Source of the DNA: Syntrophales bacterium
Lineage (GTDB): Bacteria; Desulfobacterota; Syntrophia; Syntrophales; UBA8958
Length of the DNA: 51,786 nucleotides
NCBI GenBank assembly: GCA_026417625.1
Contig: JAOACW010000011.1
Location: forward strand, 1 to 51,786
Reading direction: 5' to 3'
Shown here: positions 852 to 16,286 of the stretch, piece by piece
Numbering within the stretch: position 1 is the first letter of the stretch
Layout of the letters: every line of letters begins with the position of its first letter
Notes under the pieces: model-generated
What the model saw: only the letters and a program-made list of their open reading frames with translations
Databases searched by the model: none
Told to the model about the DNA's origin: nothing
Program-made: the position numbers and the translations under genes

Positions 852-2150
852 TCAGTTGATTTTGTGCTGTAACTTTAAAAACCTGCCGAGGTGTTTGTCC
901 AATTTTGTTGTATGATTTAAAAGCCAATCCGTAACCAGTATCTGCGCCTTAAAAAGAAGAAATACCCTGTGAGTATTGAGGTCTTTTCTTATCTCCTCTT
1001 TAAATGCAGTGAAATAATCTGTAAACTGCCTGTGTTGATTTATCTGGAGGTCCACAAAGGGGTAATCAATCTCTCTCATAAGCTCCTCTTCTGTTTGAAA
1101 GTGCTCAACAACATAATTACTCAAAAATTCAATGAGATTGTTTAATTGCGAATAATCATATGCCCTGTCCATAGCCTCTACGAGACTGCTGGCATGTTCA
1201 ATGAGACTTTTATGCTGTTCGTCTATGACCGGATGACCGATAAGCATGGAATCATCCCAGCGGACAGCAAGACCTGCTTCGCCGCTACTCTCGTGGATAC
1301 CGGTTTCAAGGAATCGCTTGCAACGTTCATAGTATACCCGGGCAACAGTATCACCCGGTGCAATATCCAAACACTGAGACAACATATCCATTGCCTCAGG
1401 GATTTTTTTCAGGTGATAATGGGCAAGAGCTTCTTCAAAAATCCCTTTAGTCTCCATTTTTGCCTTTCTCAATTTTAAAGGATCCTTATCAAAGACCTCA
1501 TATATAGATTGACATTGCTGTTTCCCCTTAACCTTTACCCTGTCGACAAAACGGATATGATAAACTGAAGAATCATGAAGGCTATAATATGTATGTTCGC
1601 TTATTAAAATCGATGTCATATAATCTTTTGTCATGGATTCTATACGCGAGGCAAGGTTCACGGCATCACTTATCACTGTACTTTCCATATAGTGTTTTCC
1701 CCCTATTATTCCAAGCATCATCAGGCCTGTATTGATGCCAATACCTATTTTTATTGATTTATGCCCTTTTCTCTCCAGCGCTGAATTGTAAGCCTCAAGT
1801 TCTTCAAGCATACCTATTGCGCCCTTTAATGCCGAATCAGCACCCTGTGGAAAAAGTGCCATGATCCCATCACCTATATACTTGTCTATGATCCCTCCTG
1901 AATTTGCAATAACCGGCTCCATCCTTTCGAGGTAAGAATTTATAAAAGAAAAATTATCCTTAGGTGACATATTTTCCGAAATGGCTGTAAAATCTCTTAT
2001 ATCAGAAAAAAGTATCGTCATGGTGATCTCTATATGGTCACCAAGCTCTACATTCATTATATTGTCTTTGCCCATCAATTTAATAAATTCCTGGGGAACA
2101 AAACGACTGTACGCATCAATTATTTTATCAATGGATTTATCCATGGACAT
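852..2150 (-). CDS. Class III nucleotide cyclase fused to bacteriohemerythrin
   Basis: A 432-residue cytosolic protein with no membrane segment. Residues about 40-220 form a class III adenylate/guanylate cyclase domain. The metal aspartates are D50 (FSDIRDFT) and D94 (IGDGIMA), the purine-site lysine is K90, and the transition-state pair is N165/R169 (NLASRIES). Residues 235-285 look like one or two TPR-type helices. Residues about 297-428 form a hemerythrin domain with di-iron ligands H313, H350, E354, H373, H413 and D418. The ligand expected four residues before H373 is Q369, encoded by CAG, not His. The architecture suggests cyclic nucleotide output controlled by O2, NO or iron status; the coupling is inferred. 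It stands alone on the minus strand. Confidence 0.88.
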   Translation of the reverse strand: MSMDKSIDKIIDAYSRFVPQEFIKLMGKDNIMNVELGDHIEITMTILFSDIRDFTAISENMSPKDNFSFINSYLERMEPVIANSGGIIDKYIGDGIMALFPQGADSALKGAIGMLEELEAYNSALERKGHKSIKIGIGINTGLMMLGIIGGKHYMESTVISDAVNLASRIESMTKDYMTSILISEHTYYSLHDSSVYHIRFVDRVKVKGKQQCQSIYEVFDKDPLKLRKAKMETKGIFEEALAHYHLKKIPEAMDMLSQCLDIAPGDTVARVYYERCKRFLETGIHESSGEAGLAVRWDDSMLIGHPVIDEQHKSLIEHASSLVEAMDRAYDYSQLNNLIEFLSNYVVEHFQTEEELMREIDYPFVDLQINQHRQFTDYFTAFKEEIRKDLNTHRVFLLFKAQILVTDWLLNHTTKLDKHLGRFLKLQHKIN

Positions 2151-2197: not shown

Positions 2198-2284
2198 CTA
2201 AGAGGCATCGCCAGAGGCAAGAAAAGCAGCCGTTTTTGCCACCTCTTCTAGCTCACCACTTCTCAAAAGCGTCTGATCGATAAA
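2198..2284 (-). pseudogene. Remnant of a short-chain dehydrogenase C-terminus
   Basis: Reading the minus strand from 2284 to an in-frame TAG at 2198-2200 gives 28 residues containing LRSGELEEVAKTAAFLAS. This matches the conserved C-terminal segment of FabG-type short-chain dehydrogenases (the usual GxPEEVAxxxxFLASDxAS pattern). The segment stops just where the family normally continues with YITG, and I find no start or Rossmann core upstream. It is best explained as a decayed gene fragment. A chance similarity is possible because the stretch is short. Confidence 0.45.
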
Positions 2285-2426
2285 GGTCACTGTTCGGCAA
2301 TGCTATTGGTAACACAAGACAACGTTTTTTATAAGAACAAGTTTTGCTCCTCTCTATTTATCCAACAGCATCTCCACGTGCTCAAGAAACTGTGCGATCA
2401 CCCCAATTGCTTAACCAGTCTGTGGA

Positions 2427-2885: not shown

Positions 2886-4715
2886 TCACACCATTTCGCA
2901 CATTTCTCTCTTTTTCCCCTGAACAATCTCCACGAGGTATTCCGCCTTTAAGGTATCAAAGTTATAATAATCCGCATCGAGAAGATAAGCCATCCTTGCA
3001 GCCAAGTCGGTTTTAAGAAAATTTCTCTTATCTTCTGTATCTATAACGATGTAGTCCGTTGACGGTAGTTTTTTGAGATAAAAGGACAACCTCTTTAACT
3101 CTTCCCAGACAGGAATACCCGATATGCTGTGGTTAGCCCGCCCGTCAGTGATGAGTACAACCAAGAACCTCATATAAGGTGTTTTTAAAGTCATCTTTTT
3201 TACAAGGTTATACGTTTCCAAAAGACCAGCAGACAGTGGAGTTTTCCCTCCCACAGGCAATCCTTTCAATCTTTTATACGCCATTTCCACACTGGATGTG
3301 GGAGGAAGTACCACTTCCGCACTATCTTTGCGAAAAAGTACCAGAGCAACCTTGTCCCTCTTCTGATAGCAATCGAGAAGCAATGACTGTATAGCTCCTT
3401 TCGTCTCTATCATTCTTTTATTAACACCCATAGAACCGGAACCATCAACAACAAATACAACAAGGTGTCCTGTTCTCTTCTCTCTCTGTTTGAACCTCAA
3501 ATCCTCATCTCGGAGAATTATCTTGTCCTTTCTTCCCCGTAAGATCTGAAATGGTGCCGCCGCACGGATCGTAGCATCAAAAGCAATATCACCGTTTCTT
3601 CTCAATACACTACGTATATATCTACCGGATGCGCCCCGGCTTATCGTCTTGGTTCTTCTACCTCCTCCACGGCGGATAATCCTATCTTTCTTTAGTAAAA
3701 AACGGCGAACCTTAAATGAAGATCCTATTTCGAAAACGTGTTCCTTTGACCTAGTCTCCCCAATGTAACGGACATTAGCACAGCAATCTCCTTTCTCTCC
3801 TACATTAGAGTACTTCTCCCCTCTATCTCGCCACTCAGAATGGTCATGATGGCGTTCATGATCAGCAGAACCATTCCCCATTTTTTGTACAGCTTCATGC
3901 ACAAGATGATCTTCATCAAAACATGACTTCCTATGAGCAAAAACAAAAGGAGAAACCACATCCACATGCTCCTTAGACACTTCGGTGGCACCGGTAAAGG
4001 CAGCAAAGGCGCGGGAAGCGTATAACAGAAAAATTTCGCCTCTGTGTCCCTCAATTTTATTTGTTACACACAAATCAACTATGTACTCCATAATCCGCTC
4101 TGAAATACGAATATCACTGAGCCCCAAACGGGCATTTGCGATCCTACGTCTTAGCTCTTCATCACCGTCAGGCGGATCATTGTCCAAAAACCTACGCAAC
4201 ACATCTGCCCTCTCTTCAAAATCAGGGTGAGAAACAAAAAATACACACATGCCGAAACGATCAAGGAGGTGGGGTGAAAGCTCTCCCTCATCTGGGTTCA
4301 TGGTAGCTACAACAATAAAATCACTAAAAGGAGGGGAATCTTCTGAGAGAGATAAACTCATACCCTGTTTTTTTAACAGCACACTTAATATTTCCGGAGG
4401 GAGAAGGTTTATATCATCTATATACAGAATTCCACCCGCAGCACGATCCAGTACCCCCTTCTGGACCACCTTCGCTCCACTTTTGATGCTCGCTTCAATA
4501 TCTAAGCTCCCTACGAGGGATTCTATTGTAACGTTTAAAGGGAGCTCCACATACGGCATCCCATCCTGCAAAAGATTCCTGACCTGCCTTGCCAAGGTGG
4601 ATTTGCCACAGCCTCTTCCCCCAACAAAGAGCACACCACCACAGTTCTTATCAATGGCATTAAGAACCAAAGCGAGCTTTGCATTTTCATGACCAACAAA
4701 ACTTGAAATTAGCAT
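2886..4715 (-). CDS. chlD: ChlD-like chelatase subunit (AAA+ and VWA domains)
   Basis: A 609-residue protein that would form the AAA+ ring with the ChlI-like subunit and drive the CobN-like metal chelatase. The AAA+ domain has an intact Walker A (GGRGCGKS, residues 32-39) and Walker B (YIDD, 98-101). Many ChlD proteins have lost these, so this subunit may hydrolyse ATP. The central linker contains a His-rich patch (residues 285-295, four His) and then a basic Arg-rich stretch. The C-terminal VWA domain has the MIDAS motif DGSGSMG (424-430) and the GGKTPL loop. It starts 4 nt after the upstream stop and is the last gene of the cluster. Confidence 0.88.
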   Translation of the reverse strand: MLISSFVGHENAKLALVLNAIDKNCGGVLFVGGRGCGKSTLARQVRNLLQDGMPYVELPLNVTIESLVGSLDIEASIKSGAKVVQKGVLDRAAGGILYIDDINLLPPEILSVLLKKQGMSLSLSEDSPPFSDFIVVATMNPDEGELSPHLLDRFGMCVFFVSHPDFEERADVLRRFLDNDPPDGDEELRRRIANARLGLSDIRISERIMEYIVDLCVTNKIEGHRGEIFLLYASRAFAAFTGATEVSKEHVDVVSPFVFAHRKSCFDEDHLVHEAVQKMGNGSADHERHHDHSEWRDRGEKYSNVGEKGDCCANVRYIGETRSKEHVFEIGSSFKVRRFLLKKDRIIRRGGGRRTKTISRGASGRYIRSVLRRNGDIAFDATIRAAAPFQILRGRKDKIILRDEDLRFKQREKRTGHLVVFVVDGSGSMGVNKRMIETKGAIQSLLLDCYQKRDKVALVLFRKDSAEVVLPPTSSVEMAYKRLKGLPVGGKTPLSAGLLETYNLVKKMTLKTPYMRFLVVLITDGRANHSISGIPVWEELKRLSFYLKKLPSTDYIVIDTEDKRNFLKTDLAARMAYLLDADYYNFDTLKAEYLVEIVQGKKREMCEMV

Positions 4716-4719
4716 AAGA

Positions 4720-5733
4720 TTAATACTCCGCTAGTAAAGATAAAACCTTTTCGTGACTGTGTTCCACATCCTCAAATGGTGAACGCTTTAACCTGTGACT
4801 CAGTGCTAGTGCGGCCGCCTCTTTGATATCAGACTCTTCAATGGATGATTTTCCATATAAGGCAGCAATAGCTCTGGATGCTTTCATTATTACTATATCC
4901 GCTCTATGGCCATCAATGTTAAAAGATGAGGTGATCTCTACAATCCTCTCCAGCACTTCATTCGTCAGGACAATACTTTCCAGTTTAGCTTTAGCATTTG
5001 CGATTGTTGTGGCAAGGGACCTCTGTTCATGTTCCCATCGCTTGGCAAAAGTCTCCGGATCTGCATCAAAAGAAGCTCTTCGTCGGAGTATTTCCACTCG
5101 TAATTCTTTGTCAGTTACAGACGAGACTCGGACACACAATCCAAAGCGATCAAGAAGCTGGGGACGGAGATCGCCCTCCTCAGGATTCATTGTCCCCACA
5201 AGGATGAACCTCGAGGGATGAGAAAAGGAGACACCCTCCCTTTCAACAGTGTTTACACCCATAGCAGCGGAGTCGAGTAAAAGATCCACCAGGTGGTCCT
5301 CCAAAAGATTAACTTCATCCACGTAGAGAAAGTTTCTGTTGGCCTCAGCAAGAATCCCCGGTTCGAATCTCTTCTCCCCTCTTTTCAGGGCATACTCAAT
5401 GTCCAATGTTCCCACCAGCCTATCTTCCGTAATACCAAGGGGCAATTCCACAACCCGCATTTTCTTGTGTGCCCGCTCGAGCACCCCTTTTCTTTCTATA
5501 GATTCCTTACACCTCTGACACAATGGACCATCAGGGTCACAATTGAAGGGACAGTCCTTGACAACCTCGATCTCTGGAAGCAACTCTGCAAGAGCACGAA
5601 CTGCGGTACTCTTGGCTGTCCCCTTCTCACCCATTATCAGCAAACCACCAATGGTAGGATCAATAACGTTTATGACCAGTGCTTTCTTCAACGCCTCCTG
5701 ACCCACAATAGCTGTAAAAGGAAAAACTATCAT
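4720..5733 (-). CDS. chlI: ChlI-like chelatase AAA+ ATPase subunit
   Basis: A 337-residue AAA+ ATPase of the BchI/ChlI family. Walker A is GEKGTAKS (35-42), Walker B lies in LYVDEVNLL, and the sensor/arginine region is LLDRFGLCV. An insertion near residues 61-75 carries four cysteines (C61, C65, C72, C75), seen in a subset of ChlI-like proteins and possibly a metal or structural site. The start ATG overlaps the stop of the CobN-like gene by 4 nt, so the two are translationally coupled. No other bacteriochlorophyll genes are in the window, so a role in chlorophyll synthesis is unlikely. Confidence 0.9.
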
Positions 5734-8700
5734 TTACTTTCCTCCCATTCTTCTCTCCATTTTGACGCATCAGCTACAGTATAGATATCTATGTTACCTC
5801 CCTGAAAATCGCCACGGACATTTTCCATCCGCTCCTCCAAAAAACCCTCGATCTCCATGTAGATTTCCCTCAAAGCTCCCTCAACGTCAGGAGAAGGTGT
5901 CCAGAGTCCCCTTTCTGTAGCTTCCAACAATCTTCGGGCCATTTCTTCTAAGGCCCATGGGTTACTCTCCGCAAAAAACCTTCTATTTTCTTCATTCATA
6001 ACGAAGGTCCGTGCGATATCGTCAAAAATCGTTCCGTCCACCTCTTTAGCCGTTGCCTGCCAACCGTACAATCTACCAACCCTTTTGCTTATTTCACTTG
6101 CTCCTTTGTAACCGTGCCTCTTCATGCTTTCAATCCATCGAGGATTGAGAATCTTAGCCCTCGCTATCCTCTGTATCTCCTCGGCAAGTGTTCTCACTGT
6201 TACACGGTTCGGTTCCCTCGTATCACCGTAAAAATTTTTAACATCTTTACCTGTTAAAACCCTTGTGGCATTGATCATTCCACCATGAGTTCCAAAATAC
6301 CCACAGCAACTTGTCAAATCATATTCGTCAGTCACTGCCTTATTGAAGGTAACTTCCACGGTTCTTAAAGCACCTCTTAAACCCTCATGAGCTGGGGTCC
6401 CAAAAACCCCTTTCCCATACGCATAACCGTTCCACCTAACAAAAACTTCTGCAAGATCAGCCTCCGATCTCCATGCAGATGCATAAACAGCAAGTTGTGT
6501 CCCCGCTTGATAGGTTCCTGGCATACTGGCAAATATCCGATAAGTATATTTGCGAAAAAGCTCATCAGAAATAACCGAATGATGATCATGGCTCTGAGCA
6601 CTTTCTTTCCTGATCTTTTCAAAAGTGTGTTTCTTCACAAAATTCCATTCCGGCAACTCATCAAGAGAAGCCACATGCTGCACGATTTCGTCTAAAAGCT
6701 CAATACATCCAGGGAAGTTATCCCTCGTTATTCCCGACACTCTCACCGTTACGTCAATCCTGGGTCTACCAATCTCTGACAGTGGTATCACTTCGAACCC
6801 CTTTACCCTTCCACTTTTGTCCCACACAGGTTTTACCCCCATGAGATACATCATCATTGCCATTCCTTCTCCACCAGACCACATAATGTCACTACACTGC
6901 CAATAAAAAGCGATGTTCTCTGGATACCTCCCCTCCGATTTAAAAAATCTCTCAACTGTTTTCTCCGCCAATTTTATTCCAATCAGCCAAGCTGATGGCG
7001 TGGGGATTCTTCGGGGATCAAGGGAGTAAAAATTACGTCCAGTAGGCAGCACATCGCTCCTGCCCCGTGTGATTAAGCCTGAAGGACCCGGCTCTATATA
7101 GCCACCGCTTAGGCCATTTAGGAATGAACCAATCTCATCAGAAGCTTCTATACGGACAATAACCTCTTTTATTCTCTCCTCTACTTTTGCAAGCCGAATG
7201 TGATCCTCCTTTTTTATGGTGTAAAGTTCCTCAAGTTGAGTCCTTAAGGATGTTCTTCCTAAAACAAAATTACGGCAAAGGTCCCTTAAACATTCATCAA
7301 TTTTTTCCTCCAGAGCATCTTCACCCAAGAGTCCTTGTCGGGCTATTATGTCCCTTAACACGCTCTTGGGGGCATCGGAAGAATCATCGAAACGAATGAT
7401 AGAATAAACAAAATCCGCTAATTTTTCCCCACAAGGGACCTCTCCGAATACGTGCATTCCTTCTGGGAAAAAGGTGCTCTTCATTAAGGAAAGTCTTTCA
7501 TGAAGTTCCTGGAAATTGTTATGGGTTCTCTCTCCAGTTTCTATCTCTTCCTCCAACAAATTTAGCTGTTTGGCTTTATCATGGATCATATGTGCTATTG
7601 TATGGGCCTTTGCAGGTTCTTGGACCTCATACCTCCTGTATTCTTCCAGCAATCTTTCCAGTTCCTCCATTTCTCCATATAGTTCTCCTTTAACCAACAC
7701 CGTCTGCATATGGTCCACTATAACAGCGTAGCTCCTCCTCTTGGCCACCGTTCCTTCAGCTGGATTATCCGCATTGTATATGTAAAGATGAGGCATAGAA
7801 TCTACAGCAATATCAGGGAAACACATCTGCGAGAGACCGGAAGATTTTCCCGGTAAAAACTCCAAATTTCCATGTGTACCTACATGGACTATAACATCGG
7901 TTTTGAAAATCCTGGATAACCATCTGTACGTAGCAACGTAATGATGAGGGGGTGGCACAGAAGGATCATGAAGGATCTTACAAACCTCACCATCACAACG
8001 TGCCCCAGCACAACCTCTCTTTGGTTGAACACAAATTACAACATTCCCAAACCTCACACCCGTAATCAGTATCTTCCCCTCATACACCATAGACGTGCCC
8101 GGAGGATCCCCCCAAGCGGCACACATCCTCTCGCGACTACTTTCCTGAAGTTCTTCAAACCATTCCTCGTACTGCTCCCTATCAACGAAATCTAATACGC
8201 CCCCCTTATCCACTATCTCCTCAACCGTCGTCCATCGGAACTCAGAAATAGCTTTTTTTTCCATTATTTCCTCAATTAGAGCACTTCCACTTTCCGGTGG
8301 TATCACATCGTAACCCTGCTCCTTCATCCGCCGCATAATAACAACAACACTCTCCAGTGTATCAAGGTGCGCCCCACCTCCTACCGTACCTTCCAGAGAA
8401 GCACAGGGATTGTTGTGAAGGATAAAAGCTACCTTCTTCTCACTATTTGGCTTCTTCCTCAGCTCTAACCATCGGGCAACGCGCTGAGCCATACGCTCTA
8501 TCCTTTCATTAAAGGGAGCGTAGATATCACCATCCGAACCGGAAATACTTTGCACCGCACCGATCACCAAAGGTTCAATTACACCCTCAAACTCCGGCAA
8601 GGCTATGCTCCACGCTACCTGCACACCTAACCCTTCGGGGTCCTCAAGCCATTCCTTTTTACTCCGGTAATAAGAAATCACAGGATTAAACAGCGGAATG

Positions 8701-9521
8701 TTCAACTGCTTGAATATATCGACCCCTCCTTTCGCACCCGAAATATCTTCATCCCCTTTACCGGACCCCAAAAAGAAAGATGTTAATTTAACAACACCTT
8801 CCACAATTGGCCTGCCATCCTTCAGAAAAAACCTCTCCACAACATCTCTTCCGCTTAAATTCCCCAAAGAATCATCCTTCAATGAATAAAGAAAAACGGG
8901 AACAACACCAAAGTTAAGCTTTTCCATCGACTCTATAAAAGCCTTCTCCACCTCCATATTCCCAGTGACCCAGTTGGTCCGCGGATAGAGAAGACCAACA
9001 AAAGCCTTTGGGGTGAACAAAAGGTGTTGTTGATAAAAACGGAGAAATGACTCGGTATCTTCAAATATCCCATCAATCCGAGGGTGATGAATACCCTCCC
9101 AGGGTATTTCCACAGGTTCTGAAAATGGTAAGTCCTTTTGAAAAAGCTGGGAGAGGAGATAACAGAACATGTTCTGGATATTCTCAAAACCGTTAAAGAT
9201 CAAATAGCGGTAAACGGTAAAAGCGATCTCAGTAGACACATTTGACAAAGCCATAAAAGTTGGATCACTGCCCGTCACGACTACAGGGATACTTTTTTTT
9301 GCAGCACTAAGCGTATCCTCCAATTCCCCCCAGAAGGGATCATTTGTTCTGTAAAGCAATATGAGATCTGCATCGAGCATCTCCGCCTGGATTTTCTTTA
9401 CTATTTCGGGAGCTGTGCTCAGCACTTTAGTGGAATAAGAAAGAAGATCAATTCCCAGAACTTCTGCTGCGCGTTTCATAAGGGGAAGGTAACTTGACCA
9501 GCTTATCGCAAAGATTTTCAT
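5730..9521 (-). CDS. cobN: CobN-like metal chelatase large subunit
   Basis: A 1263-residue protein of the CobN/ChlH family, the subunit that binds the tetrapyrrole and metal. I chose the ATG at 9521 because GGAGG precedes it at the right distance; the frame extends 11 codons upstream without a site. Landmarks are the [10 protein letters not shown] motif (546-555), the [11 protein letters not shown] segment (about 805-815) and the HGGM region (about 1079-1082). Two features are unlike typical CobN: a C-x4-C-x4-C insert at 504-514, beside the QPxRG motif, and a Cys-Cys pair at 1072-1073 where Asp/Tyr-rich sequence is usual. With NikR heading the cluster, nickel rather than cobalt may be the metal; that is inference. 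Confidence 0.85.
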
Positions 9522-9534
9522 CGCCTTTCCTCCG

Positions 9535-10281
9535 TTATTCGTTGTATCTTGCAATCAAACGGGATCCCCACAGGAACAAAAGAGTCGCGTAAATCGTAAG
9601 TACAAGAAGCGAAACAAGACCCTCTCCATCGAAAATCGTCTTTCTTATGAGGATACTCGTATGGGTAAGAGGCAAGAGGTATATAAATGACTTCAACACA
9701 AATGGGAGCTCATTTATGGGGAAAAATGTTCCGCTAAAAAAAGCCATAGGCATGATGAATAAATTTGAATAAGTCGCTGTCTCTTCATGGGATTTCGTGC
9801 GCATACCAACGACAACACCCAGGCTCGAGAAGAGAAAACAGTTTACAAACAGTGAAATGAGCAGTGGCATGGTTATGGAAAAATGAGAAGATGCGAGTAT
9901 TCCAGCAATGATGATAAGAGATGAGGCAAAGATCCCCTTTACCATTCCTGCTAGAACTTCTCCTATCATAATGGAAGATGGAGAAATTGGAGCCTGGATG
10001 AAAATCTGGAACGTCCTAAAGTACAGTCTGTTAATATTCAGAGAACTGGCGATCCACGCATAAGAATTGTACATAGAACTCATAGCAACCAATCCAGGCA
10101 GTAAAAAGGCTAGATAATCACCATCACCGATCTGAACGTTCCGTCCCAATCCGAAACCAAAGGCCACAAGGTATATAAGAGGAACAATCATAGCTGAAAA
10201 GAGATATCCCAACTTCAGGAGTTTTCTTTTAAAGTGCAACATTTCCTTCAAAAAAACAGGATACCACTCTGCCCTAATCAC
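9535..10281 (-). CDS. ABC-2 type transporter permease
   Basis: A 248-residue permease of the ABC-2 family (DrrB/NodJ type) with six predicted membrane segments between residues about 20 and 245. The GTG start overlaps the stop of the ATPase gene in a GTGA, with a GAGAGG site upstream. It pairs with the ATPase ending at 10278. ABC-2 systems usually export, which is unexpected inside an uptake operon. It could expel the metal-free ligand or a synthesised chelate, or insert something into the envelope. The substrate is unknown. Confidence 0.85.
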   Translation of the reverse strand: MIRAEWYPVFLKEMLHFKRKLLKLGYLFSAMIVPLIYLVAFGFGLGRNVQIGDGDYLAFLLPGLVAMSSMYNSYAWIASSLNINRLYFRTFQIFIQAPISPSSIMIGEVLAGMVKGIFASSLIIIAGILASSHFSITMPLLISLFVNCFLFSSLGVVVGMRTKSHEETATYSNLFIMPMAFFSGTFFPINELPFVLKSFIYLLPLTHTSILIRKTIFDGEGLVSLLVLTIYATLLFLWGSRLIARYNE

Positions 10282-11129
10282 TCTATCCTCTCACCCGTTA
10301 ATTTTATAAACACGTCTTCCAGATTCGACCTGCGGATCGTCACGTTTTCATCTATACCTTTTGCAATTTGGTGTGCCTCATCACGACTTCTGCATATATG
10401 TTGTATAAGCTTCCCCTCCCCGTTTATGTATTCCACAACGTATTCCCCCACCGTACCCTTCAAACGCGAAGGGGTATCCACCGCGATTAAACGCCCCCGA
10501 GATATAATACCCACCCTATCACAGAGAGCCTCAGCCTCTTCAATGTAATGGGTTGTTAGAATCACGGTCCGCCCATCCATTTGCGTTCTCCTCACTATAT
10601 CCCAGAGGTGACGTCTTATCTGAGGATCTAACCCCGTGGATGGTTCATCGAGAAATATAACCTGTGGTTGGGTAAGAAGGGCTCTAGCTAAAAGCAACCG
10701 TCTCTTCATACCACCAGAATACTCCGAAACTACCTGATTCCTTCTCTCCCAGAGATCCACCATCTTAAGATGCTCGTTGATCGCCTGATCCAAATTATCT
10801 ACACCATGCAACATTCCATAAATGAGGAGATTTTCGTACGCCGTTAACTCAAGATCGAGATTGTTTTCTTGGGGCACAACCCCAATAATCTTTCTAATCT
10901 CCCTGGGATGCTCCCTAACATCAAACCCACCAACTTTGCACGTACCCCCATCTGGAAGGCTAAGTGTGGTCATGACTCTAATGGTTGTGGTTTTACCTGC
11001 ACCATTTGGTCCTAGAAGCCCAAAAATCTCCCCCTGCACCACAGTAAACGTAACATCATCTATAGCTTTCAACTCCCCGTAAGTTTTTGTAAGGTTCTTC
11101 AACTCTATTATCGTTCGATTTTTGGGCAT
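10278..11129 (-). CDS. ABC-2 type transporter ATPase
   Basis: A 283-residue ATPase of the DrrA/CcmA-like family. Walker A is GPNGAGKT near residue 40, the signature is YSGGMKRR, and Walker B is VIFLDEPSTGLD. The C-terminal 60 residues resemble the DrrA-type accessory domain. The ATG start has an AGAGG site and lies 22 nt inside the preceding ATPase gene, so the two overlap. It works with the permease that immediately follows. Confidence 0.9.
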   Translation of the reverse strand: MPKNRTIIELKNLTKTYGELKAIDDVTFTVVQGEIFGLLGPNGAGKTTTIRVMTTLSLPDGGTCKVGGFDVREHPREIRKIIGVVPQENNLDLELTAYENLLIYGMLHGVDNLDQAINEHLKMVDLWERRNQVVSEYSGGMKRRLLLARALLTQPQVIFLDEPSTGLDPQIRRHLWDIVRRTQMDGRTVILTTHYIEEAEALCDRVGIISRGRLIAVDTPSRLKGTVGEYVVEYINGEGKLIQHICRSRDEAHQIAKGIDENVTIRRSNLEDVFIKLTGERIE

Positions 11130-11884
11130 AAGAACCTCTGTCCATTTACGGCAAAAATACTACAGCTGACCTTGTATATTTCCTTTATATTTTTCTCTGT
11201 TATTATCTCATCGGGTGGTCCTTGATTTACAACTTTACCGTCGTCCATCAAAACCACATAATCGGAAAACTGAAGAGCCAAATTGGGATCGTGGAGTGTC
11301 ATTAGAGCAATGAGTTGCCTTTCGATAACGAGCTTTCTCAAGGTGTTCAAAACCAGCACCTGATGACGAAAATCGAGATGGGCCGTTGGTTCATCCAGTA
11401 GCAAACATGGAGCCTCCTGGGCCAACGCACGGGCTATTAAAACGAGCTGTCTTTCCCCTCCACTTACAGCTGTGTAAGGCCTGTCCTTCAGGGGAACAAT
11501 CCCAAGGGTCTGCAATGTTCTCTCCGCAATTCCATAATCCTGAGGAGATGGAAGGGCAAATGGAGATATATAGGGTGCTCTTCCCATCAGTACAACCTCA
11601 AGTACTGTGTAAGGGAAAGGCGGCACATGATCTTGGGGAACCGCTGCAAAAATCCGCGCCCTTTCAGTAACAGAAAGAGCCGACACATCATTCCCATTCA
11701 CCATTATCTGGCCCCTAGAGGCAGACCATAAACCCGTTAAACATTTAAGAAGAGTGGTTTTTCCTGATCCATTGGGTCCCAAAATGGCAGTTACCAATCC
11801 CTTACTCACGGCAAAGGACACCCCTTGTAGCACCTCTTTTCCGAGTGAGTGATGTGCATAATAAAGGTCTCTAACTTCCAACAT
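11108..11884 (-). CDS. FecE/BtuD-type ABC importer ATPase
   Basis: A 258-residue ATPase for the importer with the FecCD permease. Walker A is GPNGSGKT (about 36-43), the signature is VSGGERQ, and Walker B is CLLLDEPTAHLD. All match the iron-siderophore, heme and cobalamin importer subfamily. GGAGG precedes the ATG and overlaps the end of the permease gene. Substrate specificity cannot be read from this subunit. Confidence 0.92.
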   Translation of the reverse strand: MLEVRDLYYAHHSLGKEVLQGVSFAVSKGLVTAILGPNGSGKTTLLKCLTGLWSASRGQIMVNGNDVSALSVTERARIFAAVPQDHVPPFPYTVLEVVLMGRAPYISPFALPSPQDYGIAERTLQTLGIVPLKDRPYTAVSGGERQLVLIARALAQEAPCLLLDEPTAHLDFRHQVLVLNTLRKLVIERQLIALMTLHDPNLALQFSDYVVLMDDGKVVNQGPPDEIITEKNIKEIYKVSCSIFAVNGQRFLCPKIER

Positions 11885-11889
11885 TCACC

Positions 11890-12891
11890 TTACCTCCCCC
11901 AGCTTTCCCTTCCCCCCTTTTTGAGTAGGTAAACAAAAAAGGGGGCTCCAGTAATAGCCGTCACCAAACCCACAGGAAGATCGTAAGCGGTAAGGACTCT
12001 CGCTATCGTATCAGCAGTTATGAGAAACGCCGCTCCACCAGACATAGAAAGAGGTATCAGTAATCTATGATCGGGACCGGAAATCATCCTAACGAGATGT
12101 GGCACCATAAGTCCAACCCAACCAATTATGCCGCTTGCCGACACGGCAGTGCTCACCGCTAAGGTGGACGCTGTGATGAAAATAGCCCTGTCTCTCTTGA
12201 TATCTACCCCCATCGCCCTAGCTTCCTCACCCATGCTTATCACATTCAGACGCCATCTCATTAGGTAGATAGGAGTCAAACCCAAAAGAGAAGTGAGACC
12301 CACAATAAAAACAGACTTCCACTCCGCAAGGGAAAAACTACCCATCAACCAATATACTATGTTCTGAAGCTTTGCGGGATCCACGAGGAATTTAACGATG
12401 GACACTAAAGCGGTAAAAAAAGCTGAAACCACTACTCCAGAAAGTACCATTGTTAAACGACTTTCATGCCCCCATTGAGATATCCAGCACGTGAGCAAAA
12501 CCGCCAGAATTCCGAAGGAAAAAGCAAAAAGCGATGTCGTATAGTAAGGCAAAAAACCGATGGAAATGGCGCAACCAAACGCTGCCCCAGCGGAAATGCC
12601 CAGAATGTAAGGATCCACAAGGGGATTACGAAACAAACCCTGAAATGTAGCACCTGTGGCTGCCAGTACAACACCTACAATTCCTGCGAGGAGGATCCTA
12701 CACAGGCGGATATCAAATACTACCACCCATTCAGCGCTGTCGAAACTTCCACTTGGATTAAGAATTGCGCGGACAAAAAAACGGAGAACATCCGTAACTG
12801 CAATGTCATACGAACCGACAAACAGAGATAAAATCCCCACAAATAATGGGGAAAGCAGAATGATAAAGTATAGAGATCTTCTAGGTCTCAA
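11890..12891 (-). CDS. FecCD/BtuC-type ABC importer permease
   Basis: A 333-residue inner-membrane permease with about ten hydrophobic segments, typical of FecCD/BtuC proteins. The conserved coupling segment GxxxFxGLVxPH appears as GIIGWVGLMVPHLVR. The start is TTG at 12891, forming a TTGA overlap with the stop of the binding-protein gene. A GGAGGAG site 7 bases upstream supports this unusual start. It would carry the ligand delivered by the binding protein into the cytoplasm, where the chelatase acts. Confidence 0.92.
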   Translation of the reverse strand: MRPRRSLYFIILLSPLFVGILSLFVGSYDIAVTDVLRFFVRAILNPSGSFDSAEWVVVFDIRLCRILLAGIVGVVLAATGATFQGLFRNPLVDPYILGISAGAAFGCAISIGFLPYYTTSLFAFSFGILAVLLTCWISQWGHESRLTMVLSGVVVSAFFTALVSIVKFLVDPAKLQNIVYWLMGSFSLAEWKSVFIVGLTSLLGLTPIYLMRWRLNVISMGEEARAMGVDIKRDRAIFITASTLAVSTAVSASGIIGWVGLMVPHLVRMISGPDHRLLIPLSMSGGAAFLITADTIARVLTAYDLPVGLVTAITGAPFFVYLLKKGGRESWGR

Positions 12892-13904
12892 AAAACTCCT
12901 CCATGACTGCTCGGAATGCCAAAAAATTTACGATAAAAACGGTCTGCGGTGAGCGTAAAACTCACCTCCTTAAAAAGGTCCGGATGGATCTTCATAGCCA
13001 TCCACAGTGCCAGCAGGGCAACTCGGGGTGACCACGTGGACCACTCCGGGGCCTTATACACCCTGCCCTTTTTCACCGCATTAACAATTCTCCAACGAGG
13101 GTTGTTCAATATTTGGTGCACACCGTACCTTGCACTTCCCCAGATGAAAATCACATCAGGATTCCACTTGATGATTTGCTCCAAAGATACCTCTATGTTG
13201 CGGTACGGTAGATCGCCCGCAGGATTTTTTCCGCCACCAATACTTATCAACTCGTGACTTATGCTGTGACGACACGCAACTGTTGTAGGTCTGGATCCCA
13301 GCCAGAGCACTCGGGGGATCTGTGACTCCCGTAAATAAGCTAAACGTGCACGTATATCCCTCAAAACCGACTCCATCTCAACTATCACACGGGATACCCG
13401 CTGTTCACACTGAAAAATTCTACCTAAAAGGCGCATAAATTCGCAGAGTTCATTAATAGTCTCCGGATACTCAGCGATAATCCTGAATCCCTTCCTCTCC
13501 AAGAAACGGACTTGCTCTGGTGTTGCCGCCCAGGTGATTATCAACTCCGGTTTAACTCCTACAAGGACCTCTAGATTTATATCCGTCCCACCACCAACAA
13601 TAGGGTACAGTTTACTCACGTTTGGCCGGGCTGCCATCAAAAGATCATTTTTTATAGCATATCTACTCAGTCCCACCACGCGATCCCAGATCTCAAGGAC
13701 CGGGATCAATTCATACATCTGGAGGAACACAACTCTCTTTACAGGAACAGGAATTTCCACATGTCGACCCAATCTATCTACGTGACGAAGAGCAGTGGCA
13801 GCAACCGAAGGACGAGCTGCCACTGCTATACCCACAAAGAGAACCACTGGTAAGAAAGTGAGAATTTGTAAGGATCTTAAAATACGTAAGTCCTCGTTAT
13901 ACAT
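12888..13904 (-). CDS. Periplasmic binding protein of the FecB/BtuF family
   Basis: A 338-residue exported protein. Residues about 10-35 are a hydrophobic signal peptide ending in Ala-rich sequence. The mature part has two lobes joined by a long helix, as in BtuF and siderophore-binding proteins; landmarks are the DRLGRHVEIP N-terminal strand and the NPDVIFIW segment. It begins 4 nt after the receptor stop and overlaps the permease. It should hand the ligand from the outer-membrane receptor to the permease. There is no clear lipobox, so it is probably free in the periplasm. Confidence 0.88.
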   Translation of the reverse strand: MYNEDLRILRSLQILTFLPVVLFVGIAVAARPSVAATALRHVDRLGRHVEIPVPVKRVVFLQMYELIPVLEIWDRVVGLSRYAIKNDLLMAARPNVSKLYPIVGGGTDINLEVLVGVKPELIITWAATPEQVRFLERKGFRIIAEYPETINELCEFMRLLGRIFQCEQRVSRVIVEMESVLRDIRARLAYLRESQIPRVLWLGSRPTTVACRHSISHELISIGGGKNPAGDLPYRNIEVSLEQIIKWNPDVIFIWGSARYGVHQILNNPRWRIVNAVKKGRVYKAPEWSTWSPRVALLALWMAMKIHPDLFKEVSFTLTADRFYRKFFGIPSSHGGVF

Positions 13905-13908
13905 CTCT

Positions 13909-16161
13909 TTAAAACTTCAATTCCAACTCCGCGAACCACAACCTTCCCGGTGCCCTGTATGATTCATAGTGTTCCTCTCCAAACACATTTTCCACAGTGA
14001 TGGATGCCTTTATGTGTTTGTTAAACTTATACGAAACCTTCGTATCCCACCTAAAGAAAGGATCGTAGGAACCAGGAACGCTGTTAACAGTATCCTTATT
14101 CTCATCATCTGTGTAGCGCTTACTGAGATACCTGCCAGTCACAGACGCAAAAAAGGCCCCTCTCTCAAGCTCTGCTGTTACGTTGAACATCTTATCTGGT
14201 ACGTATGTCAATCTCTTATCCACTGTGGAGGGTTTGGCAATATTTTCCTTGATTCTTGCATCTTGATAAGTAAAGTTCCCCACTAAACGCAACCAATCTG
14301 CGATACGTTGTTCCATCTCCAAAGAAACACCTCTGCACTCGGCTTTACCAGCATTTATGAAGACATCTTCCCTAACCCATATACCACCACTCTGAACAGT
14401 ATCACCAGTTTTCCTGTAAATAAGGTCTTTGAGGTGGTTTTCAAAATAGGTAACACCAAAGCCAGCACCTCTCCAAAGTTGCTGCTTTACTCCCATATCC
14501 CATGCCCAAACCTTCTCTGGTTGTAGATCGGGGTTACCTTTGTACGTAACTCTAGGGGAAGACTGACTAGACCCAGTTCCTGTTCCAACCCAGGTTCTAT
14601 AAAGTTCGTATATAGTTGGTGGACGGAACGCTTTTCCCACAGAACCTTTCAGAGTAGTTTTCTCAAAGGGCCTGTAGACCAGCGACAACTTGGGACTGAA
14701 AGACGAAGAACTACGTGAATCGTATGTCTTTGCAAAAGCACCAGTTCCAAATTGGTTCGCATAACCATCGTACGTTCTCCACCAATCGCCCCTAAGACCA
14801 ACAAACACGCTCAAATTTTCCAGAATAGCAATCTCATCCTGGGCATAAACCGCGAAAACCTCATCCTTACCTCCAGAATTGTACGTCAAGTCCTTTTTTG
14901 AATCCTCATCTTTGTAGTACTTGACATTATGCTCCTCCGTGTTTGCCCTTCCCAACTTGTAAGAAACACCCAACGTTAAAAAGTGCATCTTCAGTAGCGG
15001 AATAGAAAACTGTAAATCGCTCAGGAAGTTCTGATTAGGACTGCTGGAGAGTTTGCCATTTTCACCGCTCAGAGTCGCGTACGGTGATGTAGCAGTATTG
15101 GGCAAAGTGTACCAGTTCTTTTCCACATCATTCAAACCAACTGTAAGCTTCGATTTTACAGATCCTATCTCTGTCTCCAATTGGGCATCGTATATGTTAA
15201 TTACTCTCATGCCCATCCCGCTCGTGTAAGCACTTTCCCTCACCGTACTCGAACCTGACGTGTAGGAATAAACGGGATTCCCATTGGCATCCCTTATGTA
15301 CGTGTGAGGTTCGTCATAGTTGTACTTATAGCGGGTCCTCATGAGGGAGAGCTTCAGGTTGGCTTTTGTACTTAAAGCGTAGGCGGTTCGGACACTTAAA
15401 CTATCATCCCACCAGGTGTTATCTCCTTTGTCACCGATCAGATAATTCGTCGCTCCCTGCGTAGAAGAGATGTAGGACCACCCTGTATACCCACTTGGTG
15501 GTTTTACAGAGGTGGTTACGAGATCCTTCGGATAACCGTTTGTGGCTTTGTACCCATAGCTAACAAGGAGCTTCCAATTATTAGTTAGTTTATCACCGTA
15601 CGAAATGTAATACGTCTGGAGATCATCAAGACTTTCTCCTCGATGCCAGCTCGTTCCATAACCACCCCTTAAAATGAGTTCCCTTTTCTCGGGTAATCGG
15701 GTGATGATATTCACCACCCCTCCCATCGCATAACCCCCGTAGAGACTGGAATATGGTCCCTGTGCTACCTCGATTTTTTCAACATCACCTGTTGCCATGC
15801 TTGTAAGCGTAACATCTCCCGTATAGGCACTGTTTAGAGGTATACCATCTTTCATCACAAGTGTTCGGCTTTGACCAGGTATACCGCGGAGTGTCACCGA
15901 TGATAGAGTATCCATCAAGTTCGTCCGTCTTACAAATACACCTGGAAGCGCATTCATAGCGCTATCAACTGTAATAACGTTTCTCTTCTCAAAATCTTCT
16001 TTTGATATTAGCCTTGTTTCACCAGGCACTGCTTCCAAACTCTTCTCCGTCCTAGTGGAAGTAACTACAATGTCCTTCATCCTGGTTTCATAAAGCCCAT
16101 CAGCCATGACATGAGAAACTGTGAAACAAATAAAAACAAGCGTCATACACAATCGCTTCAT
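13909..16161 (-). CDS. TonB-dependent outer-membrane receptor
   Basis: A 750-residue receptor. I chose the ATG at 16161: it has a GGGGAGG site and begins a classic signal peptide (residues 1-20), while the open frame continues 24 codons upstream without one. The plug domain starts with DIVVTSTR, a likely TonB-box region, and shows GVFVRR and GGYAMGGVVNIIT landmarks. The rest is the 22-strand barrel, ending in a C-terminal Phe as outer-membrane proteins do. BtuB-like receptors carry cobalamin, but homologues also carry nickel and iron chelates. Its place behind nikR and tonB suggests a nickel chelate. Confidence 0.92.
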   Translation of the reverse strand: MKRLCMTLVFICFTVSHVMADGLYETRMKDIVVTSTRTEKSLEAVPGETRLISKEDFEKRNVITVDSAMNALPGVFVRRTNLMDTLSSVTLRGIPGQSRTLVMKDGIPLNSAYTGDVTLTSMATGDVEKIEVAQGPYSSLYGGYAMGGVVNIITRLPEKRELILRGGYGTSWHRGESLDDLQTYYISYGDKLTNNWKLLVSYGYKATNGYPKDLVTTSVKPPSGYTGWSYISSTQGATNYLIGDKGDNTWWDDSLSVRTAYALSTKANLKLSLMRTRYKYNYDEPHTYIRDANGNPVYSYTSGSSTVRESAYTSGMGMRVINIYDAQLETEIGSVKSKLTVGLNDVEKNWYTLPNTATSPYATLSGENGKLSSSPNQNFLSDLQFSIPLLKMHFLTLGVSYKLGRANTEEHNVKYYKDEDSKKDLTYNSGGKDEVFAVYAQDEIAILENLSVFVGLRGDWWRTYDGYANQFGTGAFAKTYDSRSSSSFSPKLSLVYRPFEKTTLKGSVGKAFRPPTIYELYRTWVGTGTGSSQSSPRVTYKGNPDLQPEKVWAWDMGVKQQLWRGAGFGVTYFENHLKDLIYRKTGDTVQSGGIWVREDVFINAGKAECRGVSLEMEQRIADWLRLVGNFTYQDARIKENIAKPSTVDKRLTYVPDKMFNVTAELERGAFFASVTGRYLSKRYTDDENKDTVNSVPGSYDPFFRWDTKVSYKFNKHIKASITVENVFGEEHYESYRAPGRLWFAELELKF

Positions 16162-16191
16162 ACAAGAACCTCCCCAAACAATCTTTACAAT

Positions 16192-16286
16192 CCACCTCCT
16201 CTTTGCTAGGATATTATGAGGTGGTTCGATCAATCACCTTTAAAACGAGGTGGGGGTGGTATCCGCAGCCCCCATCTCACACCTCG
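16192..16286 (-). promoter_or_regulatory. Structured leader upstream of the TonB receptor
   Basis: The 170-nt gap between tonB and the receptor contains two hairpins. One pairs CGAGGTG and CACCTCG (16246-16252 with 16280-16286), has an inner G/C stem, and is followed on the minus strand by TTTT (16245-16242), like an intrinsic terminator. The other pairs 16192-16198 with 16218-16224. Both use GAGGTG/CACCTC sequence, so arms could swap. It may end tonB transcripts or attenuate the receptor. No B12-box (GCCACTG) is present, so it is not a cobalamin riboswitch. Confidence 0.45.

Follow-up and report, generated by a model that had tools for sequence, protein, structure and literature searches.

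A gene in the genome of a Syntrophales bacterium (assembly GCA_026417625.1) encodes a class III nucleotide cyclase fused to a hemerythrin (Hr) domain in which glutamine, Gln369, stands in the place of a histidine iron ligand. The substitution is real, is kept in relatives of the protein and is more general than a first-pass annotation of the same stretch of DNA could see. That stretch, here called the window, comprises positions 1–51,786 of the forward strand of contig JAOACW010000011.1 (51,786 nucleotides). We propose, at roughly even confidence, that the protein is a soluble adenylyl cyclase of class IIIb type and that the oxidation state of the di-iron site in its C-terminal Hr domain, which reflects O2 exposure, determines its output. 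The features of the gene and its upstream flank are collected in Table 1.

Table 1. Positions in the window of the fusion gene, its parts and the remains of an upstream gene
Feature	Position	Strand	Basis
Class III cyclase–TPR-like linker–hemerythrin fusion gene	852..2150	(-)	ORF of 432 aa without internal stop
Class III nucleotide cyclase catalytic domain, residues 44–213	1512..2021	(-)	Pfam, catalytic residues, fold match
Helical TPR-like linker, residues 225–291, with junction TGIHESSGE (283–291) at its end	1278..1478	(-)	Model helices
Hemerythrin domain, residues 297–424	879..1262	(-)	Pfam, NCBIfam, phmmer against DcrH-Hr, fold match
Codon CAG for Gln369, in the place of a His iron ligand	1044..1046	(-)	Alignment to DcrH-Hr, codon check
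Decayed pieces of a short-chain-dehydrogenase-like gene	2199..2351	(-)	blastn against the nearest relative

The cyclase–hemerythrin fusion described in the first-pass annotation is borne out by Pfam, which places Guanylate_cyc and Hemerythrin within one 432-aa frame, with the Hr domain C-terminal and fused to a functional domain, the cyclase. No other PF01814 match occurs in the genome, whose completeness is 97.8%. The cyclase domain matches PF00211 with an E value of 5.4e-21 and 75.4 bits (cut-off 21.9), and all six expected catalytic residues are present: D50 and D94, which we take to be the metal-binding Asp pair; K90 and T158, presumably the substrate-selecting Lys/Thr pair to which the class IIIb label belongs; and N165 and R169, assumed to be the transition-state residues. 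An AlphaFold2 model of the fusion, built with 30 aligned sequences (mean pLDDT 89), resembled class III cyclases with Z scores of up to 22.4, and all matches listed by Foldseek were cyclases. The catalytic fold gave Z 21.4 against CyaB of P. aeruginosa (3r5g) and Z 20.7 against CyaC of Spirulina (1wc1); the six residues together with the fit to CyaB support the earlier claim that the class III cyclase is complete. Because K90 and T158 align with the Lys and Thr of the adenylyl cyclase CyaB, whereas the chain of the guanylyl cyclase Cya2 has Glu and Gly there, the enzyme is predicted to use ATP, and its product is probably cAMP. The window genome contains five cNMP-binding matches, which are possible cAMP receptors.

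Three helices in the model (residues 225–246, 250–263 and 268–283) connect the two domains. Their likeness to TPR repeats is weak, the TPR_1 match falling under the Pfam cut-off at E 0.028, and matches to numerous class III cyclases elsewhere in the order extend to about residue 280 of the fusion protein. Beyond this linker, the Hr domain has both the four-helix fold and the family profile of hemerythrins: residues 308–421 score 31.0 bits against PF01814 (cut-off 25.3), the NCBIfam models bact_hemeryth and hemeryth_dom give 86.1 bits (cut-off 84) and 91.4 bits (cut-off 51.75), and the model superposes on DcrH-Hr with Z 18.9 and 2.1 Å over 131 residues.

Six of the seven di-iron ligands of the canonical motif are in place (H313, H350, E354, H373, H413 and D418), as first noted, and the seventh is Q369. 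In a phmmer alignment to DcrH (2avk), Q369 corresponds to His78 (chain index), the first His of the HxxxH motif, and the other six ligands match; the spacing of the site is normal (QxxxH). The surrounding stretch, YPFVDLQINQHRQF, has no other His in this column or beside it, and none appears there in the alignments, which rules out a shifted alignment that would place another His at position 369. A sequencing or assembly error is likewise ruled out, as ten further places carry a Gln codon at this site, CAA in some and CAG in others. The HxxxH pair binds Fe1, so the open coordination site suggested in the first-pass annotation would sit on Fe1. An amide ligand at this iron is chemically plausible, because Gln is close to isosteric with the Nε of His, so that its oxygen can reach the same place, and because Gln or Asn ligands are found in the non-heme iron enzymes isopenicillin N synthase and lipoxygenase. 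In hemerythrin sites Fe1 is coordinated by three His and Fe2 by two, with O2 end-on at Fe2 (PMC9388753).

The nearest relative of the fusion is found in a Syntrophorhabdaceae metagenome-assembled genome (JAOAFK010000014.1; hereafter L032); it is 92% identical and also has Gln at position 369. Between the two genes, dN/dS is 0.17 overall, 0.10 for the cyclase and 0.35 for the Hr domain, which is thus less constrained than the cyclase. Searching 155 genomes of the order (a search labelled as class-wide also covered 155, apparently the identical set) returned a separated group of matches in six genomes at E ≤2.6e-48, the next match lying at 8.6e-22. A sample of 395 genomes from the phylum added five genomes, and one of 349 genomes from the phylum of a Comamonadaceae metagenome-assembled genome added seven. 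After duplicates of one place had been collapsed and a remnant without the site (G075) left out, 19 fusion rows were found among the matches read, with the 12 weaker order-level matches and the tails of both phylum-sample lists read in part. Eleven rows, including the window and L032, have Gln at position 369 and eight have His.

The junction TG(I/V)HES(S/T)GE is present in most Gln rows, and two His-type fusions (L097 and L196) have the same cyclase–linker–Hr layout as that of the window; a third (L195) has an extra receiver domain and a fourth (L197) is longer. The remaining four (L224–L227) are larger cNMP–PAS–cyclase–Hr proteins, each without another ligand: H313 is replaced by T, A and T in L224, L225 and L226, and H350 by C in L227, and neither L224 nor L226 has a Pfam hemerythrin match at E 0.01. 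These four are eroded hemerythrin cases. In L224, L225 and L226, cAMP-binding and cAMP-making domains lie on one chain. As for the enzyme, the catalytic residues are intact in eight of the nine Gln rows that cover them. At three Gln-type places (G076, G027 and G510), the cyclase portion is absent, disrupted or truncated and the Hr frame is open, which fits poorly with an indispensable sensor-enzyme. The damaged fusion in G027 adjoins frames that, judged by eye, are transposase-like, and in G075 no more than a remnant of the fusion is left.

We built a tree of the 19 rows after removing columns 369 and 372 from the alignment. It contains a well-supported group of 15 rows around the window, 11 with Gln and four with His, and all four outer fusions have His; the inner order of the group is resolved in part. 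The Gln/His label requires two changes on this tree, compared with a mean of 6.3 when the labels were shuffled (0 of 500 shuffles were as low). A single Gln clade is not rejected (p-AU 0.55), its best tree being 0.33 log units higher, and the label changes just once in 3% of 200 bootstrap trees. The history may therefore have involved one gain of Gln, two gains, or a gain and a return to His; the presence of His in the outgroup makes it the likelier older state.

Gln is retained across considerable divergence. It is constant in a Gln-only subgroup of five rows (support 95/94) whose Hr domains are as little as 44% identical, and two other Gln-only sets, of six rows (91/96) and four rows (87/92), reach down to 39% and 53% Hr identity. 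(The 11-row group is defined by Gln, and the fixity of Gln within it is no evidence in itself.) The conservation that the first-pass annotation had proposed to look for thus holds in part: Gln is found in 11 of the 19 rows, 11 of the 15 in the supported group and all five of the subgroup, but His in eight of the 19. The same annotation had named two observations that would speak against its reading, another His in the ligand position or His-bearing homologues of identical function; no other His fills the site, but His homologues exist, two of them with the same layout. Gln and His rows are told apart by no Hr position other than 369, which says no more than that, position 369 having been chosen as the label. 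Since most close relatives share Gln, a kept change is favoured over a random defect. The pattern in the sequences is that of a residue that replaced His once or twice in the fusion family and was retained thereafter, most probably through selection.

The same pattern could have arisen if Gln369 simply sits as the His would, sensing proceeds as in the His-type fusions, and the residue was fixed by drift and stays. One or two changes in the fusion family suffice for this, in line with the p-AU value of a single Gln clade; Gln is close to isosteric with His Nε on general grounds, and the layout is common to His-type fusions. We nevertheless consider such a neutral replacement fairly unlikely, because Gln has been kept down to 44% Hr identity even though one base change would restore His, and because the 201 domains described below show several changes at this site, always to Gln or Asn.

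A second alternative is that the Hr domain has no metal function and serves as a structural or dimerization module. Its weaker constraint relative to the cyclase is consistent with this, and the lost ligands of the outer cNMP–PAS–cyclase–Hr proteins indicate that erosion occurs in this neighbourhood. However, in the 15-row group, in which Hr identity falls to 25%, only 14 of the 141 Hr positions never vary, and the other six ligands account for six of these, which indicates that the metal site has been kept. (The probability that all six are invariant by chance is 4e-5 in the Gln rows, a set chosen by Gln, so the 15-row figure is the fairer one.) We therefore regard loss of metal function as improbable, and retain the reading of a di-iron sensor.

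To place the substitution in a wider setting, we compared 201 distinct Hr domains (261 domain matches gave 204 distinct cores, three of which were dropped because one of the eight positions compared was a gap). Position 369 is His in 172 of them, Gln in 20, Asn in nine and nothing else, frequencies that are no fair sample because the profile searches used Gln-bearing queries. By source, the cyclase fusions contribute 11 Gln and eight His; non-fused domains of the order have one Gln in 25, the phylum sample two in 86, the second phylum sample six Gln and nine Asn in 65, and the remaining matches none in six. Departures at any of the seven ligands number 33, of which 29 fall at position 369, and every one of those 29 is an amide. 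A rapidly built tree of these domains, which used a simple model and has many weak branches, requires at least seven changes at this site, two of them inside the cyclase fusions.

Outside the fusions there are nine Gln types. They include three MCP-type proteins of 926 aa (in the two run against Pfam, HAMP, MCP signal and Hr domains were found and CZB fell under the cut-off), a 539-aa protein with an HD domain and an Hr domain, and two stand-alone hemerythrins. One of the latter is convergent with a gene for a response-regulator class III cyclase about 0.5 kb away. The nine Asn types are all stand-alone frames of 132–155 aa; they have a Cys after the HF of HFxxEE, and in eight of the nine a His lies two residues past the bridging Asp.

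Three candidate partners of the amide were examined and rejected. Gln372 accompanies 25 of the 29 Gln or Asn types and 27 of the 172 His types (Fisher 1e-13), but comparisons independent of the tree offer three pairs with a median p of 1, so that the link may reflect shared descent. His420, a conceivable spare ligand, is present in 18 of 29 amide types compared with five of 172 His types; it is not a general substitute, because the MCP, HD and two stand-alone Gln types lack it and the His-type fusions L097, L195 and L197 have it. Thr414, at the place of DcrH Ile119, occurs in 12 of 29 amide types and 17 of 172 His types, the latter including His-type fusions, and hence is not specific to Gln.

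The fusions also differ in their neighbours. At five Gln-type places (L032 among them), a frame of 165–195 aa lies immediately 5′ of the fusion in the same orientation, and in G076 a homologue is convergent with the fusion and abuts it; in the stretches around the fusions, this gene thus adjoins six of 11 Gln-type but none of eight His-type places. At one of them (G392), a second, stand-alone His-type hemerythrin (positions 6313–6741 of its stretch, (-)) adjoins the fusion on the 3′ side. The neighbour protein has an invariant E..Y, an ExxH motif and a C-terminal His, and Pfam Rubrerythrin scores above the cut-off in one of the five. Its model (pLDDT 88) best matches TM1526, a ferritin-like di-iron-carboxylate protein (Z 15.2, 2.8 Å, 143 residues); among PDB sequences the best match is symerythrin at E 0.1, and NCBIfam gave no useful name. 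We call the protein ferritin-like on the basis of Z scores of 13–15, which are not strong alone for a helical bundle, with the ExxH pattern adding weight. From its position beside the fusions, it presumably handles O2 or peroxide, or iron.

Among 154 genomes of the order, a profile built from the five same-strand neighbours found the ferritin-like gene in 40, at 45 places in all. In the 42 places examined, with about 2.5 kb on each side and less at contig ends, a class III cyclase lies nearby in 16, a hemerythrin in six, either in 18 and neither in 24. The chance expectation for cyclases is about 0.5 in 42, estimated from four cyclase matches per 1.79 Mb in the window genome, a count that may miss the 270-aa type. 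In eight of the 16 places (the broken G076 fusion included), the cyclase gene touches the ferritin-like gene or lies within 60 nt of it; the other eight have a cyclase of about 270 aa at a distance of 0.8–0.9 kb. In one genome (G064, contig C39, L285, positions 3080–5075), genes for a ferritin-like protein, a PAS–class III cyclase and a stand-alone His-type hemerythrin stand in a row on one strand, as if the fusion had been divided into separate genes next to its ferritin-like neighbour. Elsewhere (G153, contig C301, L302, positions 1339–2247), a single 303-aa frame combines a ferritin-like domain, recognized by our profile, with a Pfam hemerythrin domain.

The fusion in the window has lost this neighbour. 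L032 matches the window at 93.6% over 1,316 nt through the fusion, and its ferritin-like gene, at positions 2619–3107 of L032, has no blastn match beside the window fusion. The matches further upstream (87% over 86 nt at 2281–2199, and 76% over 76 nt at 2351–2287) are remains of a short-chain-dehydrogenase-like gene (named from the start of its frame) that in L032 lies two genes upstream of the fusion. A ferritin-like homologue of 34% identity is encoded on another contig of the window genome, with no cyclase or hemerythrin gene near it. Separately, positions 2886–16233 (-) of the window hold a cluster encoding a VWA/AAA protein (ChlD-like), a ChlI-like protein and CobN (PF02514, 1,242 bits), together with an ABC-2 permease and ATPase, a FecCD permease and ATPase, a binding protein and a TonB receptor, which looks like tetrapyrrole or cobalamin metal insertion and uptake.

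In the sensor that we propose, the Hr domain would hold a di-iron centre on its six canonical ligands. Gln369 would most likely be a weak amide-oxygen ligand at the metal, or else Fe1 would be five-coordinate, and a site altered in this way would favour fast redox-type switching over reversible carriage of O2. A change of state could then shift the N-terminal loop of the Hr domain, as proposed for DcrH, and pass through the junction TG(I/V)HES(S/T)GE and the TPR-like linker to the cyclase dimer; the cAMP so made would act through CRP-like proteins, for which the cNMP-binding matches are candidates. By analogy, a redox switch of the DcrH kind would be the simplest model. The site might instead be adapted to sensing nitric oxide or the availability of iron: with weaker ligands, iron could be bound less tightly or both irons could be left open, and ferritin-like neighbours could equally mark iron handling. 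Nothing specific argues against this, and sequence does not distinguish NO from O2, but we think it rather unlikely compared with a response to O2 or redox state.

Should Gln369 be functional in a redox-responsive cyclase of this kind, it would provide a direct route from O2 or redox state to cAMP in bacteria. The His, Gln and Asn types would form a natural mutant series at a single di-iron ligand across several contexts, suited to studying how O2 binding is balanced against redox sensing by the first coordination sphere of hemerythrin. More tentatively, hemerythrins of a recurrent 'amide type' may exist, in which the same ligand, and hardly any other, is replaced by Gln or Asn, so that a domain that binds O2 reversibly becomes a switch for redox state, peroxide or NO; this type would have been adopted several times, in cAMP, chemotaxis (MCP-type), c-di-GMP (HD-type) and stand-alone proteins, with a ferritin-like/class III cyclase/hemerythrin module in Syntrophorhabdaceae-type bacteria. 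We consider this broader scheme possible but less probable than the proposal for the fusion itself.

A literature search by title returned no study of a class III cyclase–hemerythrin protein, but we do not infer from this that the fusion or its Gln variant is absent from the literature. The architecture figures of one paper include cyclase and hemerythrin domains according to their legend, and such a fusion may be drawn there (PMC1592074); ligand variation in 106 single-domain sequences is reported in a supplementary figure of another (PMC4919030). In passages of a review on Hr-domain sensors, 'cyclase' occurs four times, never for a class III cyclase fusion, and the iron ligands of the sensors reviewed are described as all conserved except in the P1B-5 ATPases (PMC9388753).

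Because the canonical ligand motif is incomplete, we class the fusion as a variant of the hemerythrin-domain sensors, neither a new kind of system nor a canonical member. Its closest parallel is DcrH, the MCP of Desulfovibrio vulgaris (PDB 2avk, 2awy and 2awc), which likewise has a C-terminal Hr sensor of the same fold and shares six of the seven ligands, but differs in its MCP rather than class III cyclase output, in having His78 where the fusion has Gln369 and in having Ile119 (named from the PDB titles) where the fusion has Thr414. CyaB (3r5g) and CyaC (1wc1) have the same catalytic fold, and CyaB shares the Lys/Thr pair; these structures are of cyclase domains without hemerythrin, whereas the fusion carries its sensor C-terminal to the cyclase. 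The P1B-5 ATPases (H-HxxxE-HxE-HxxxxD) also depart naturally from the ligand motif between HxxxE and HxxxxD (PMC9388753), but there HxxxH has become HxE in an ATPase, whereas the fusion has QxxxH with the spacing kept, in a cyclase. Finally, Bhr-DGC of Vibrio cholerae and Bhr-HD-GYP of Ferrovum similarly join an Hr domain to a second-messenger enzyme, with redox control of catalysis; they differ from the fusion in acting on c-di-GMP rather than the predicted cAMP, in their N-terminal Hr domain and in their iron ligands, which are reported as conserved (PMC9388753).
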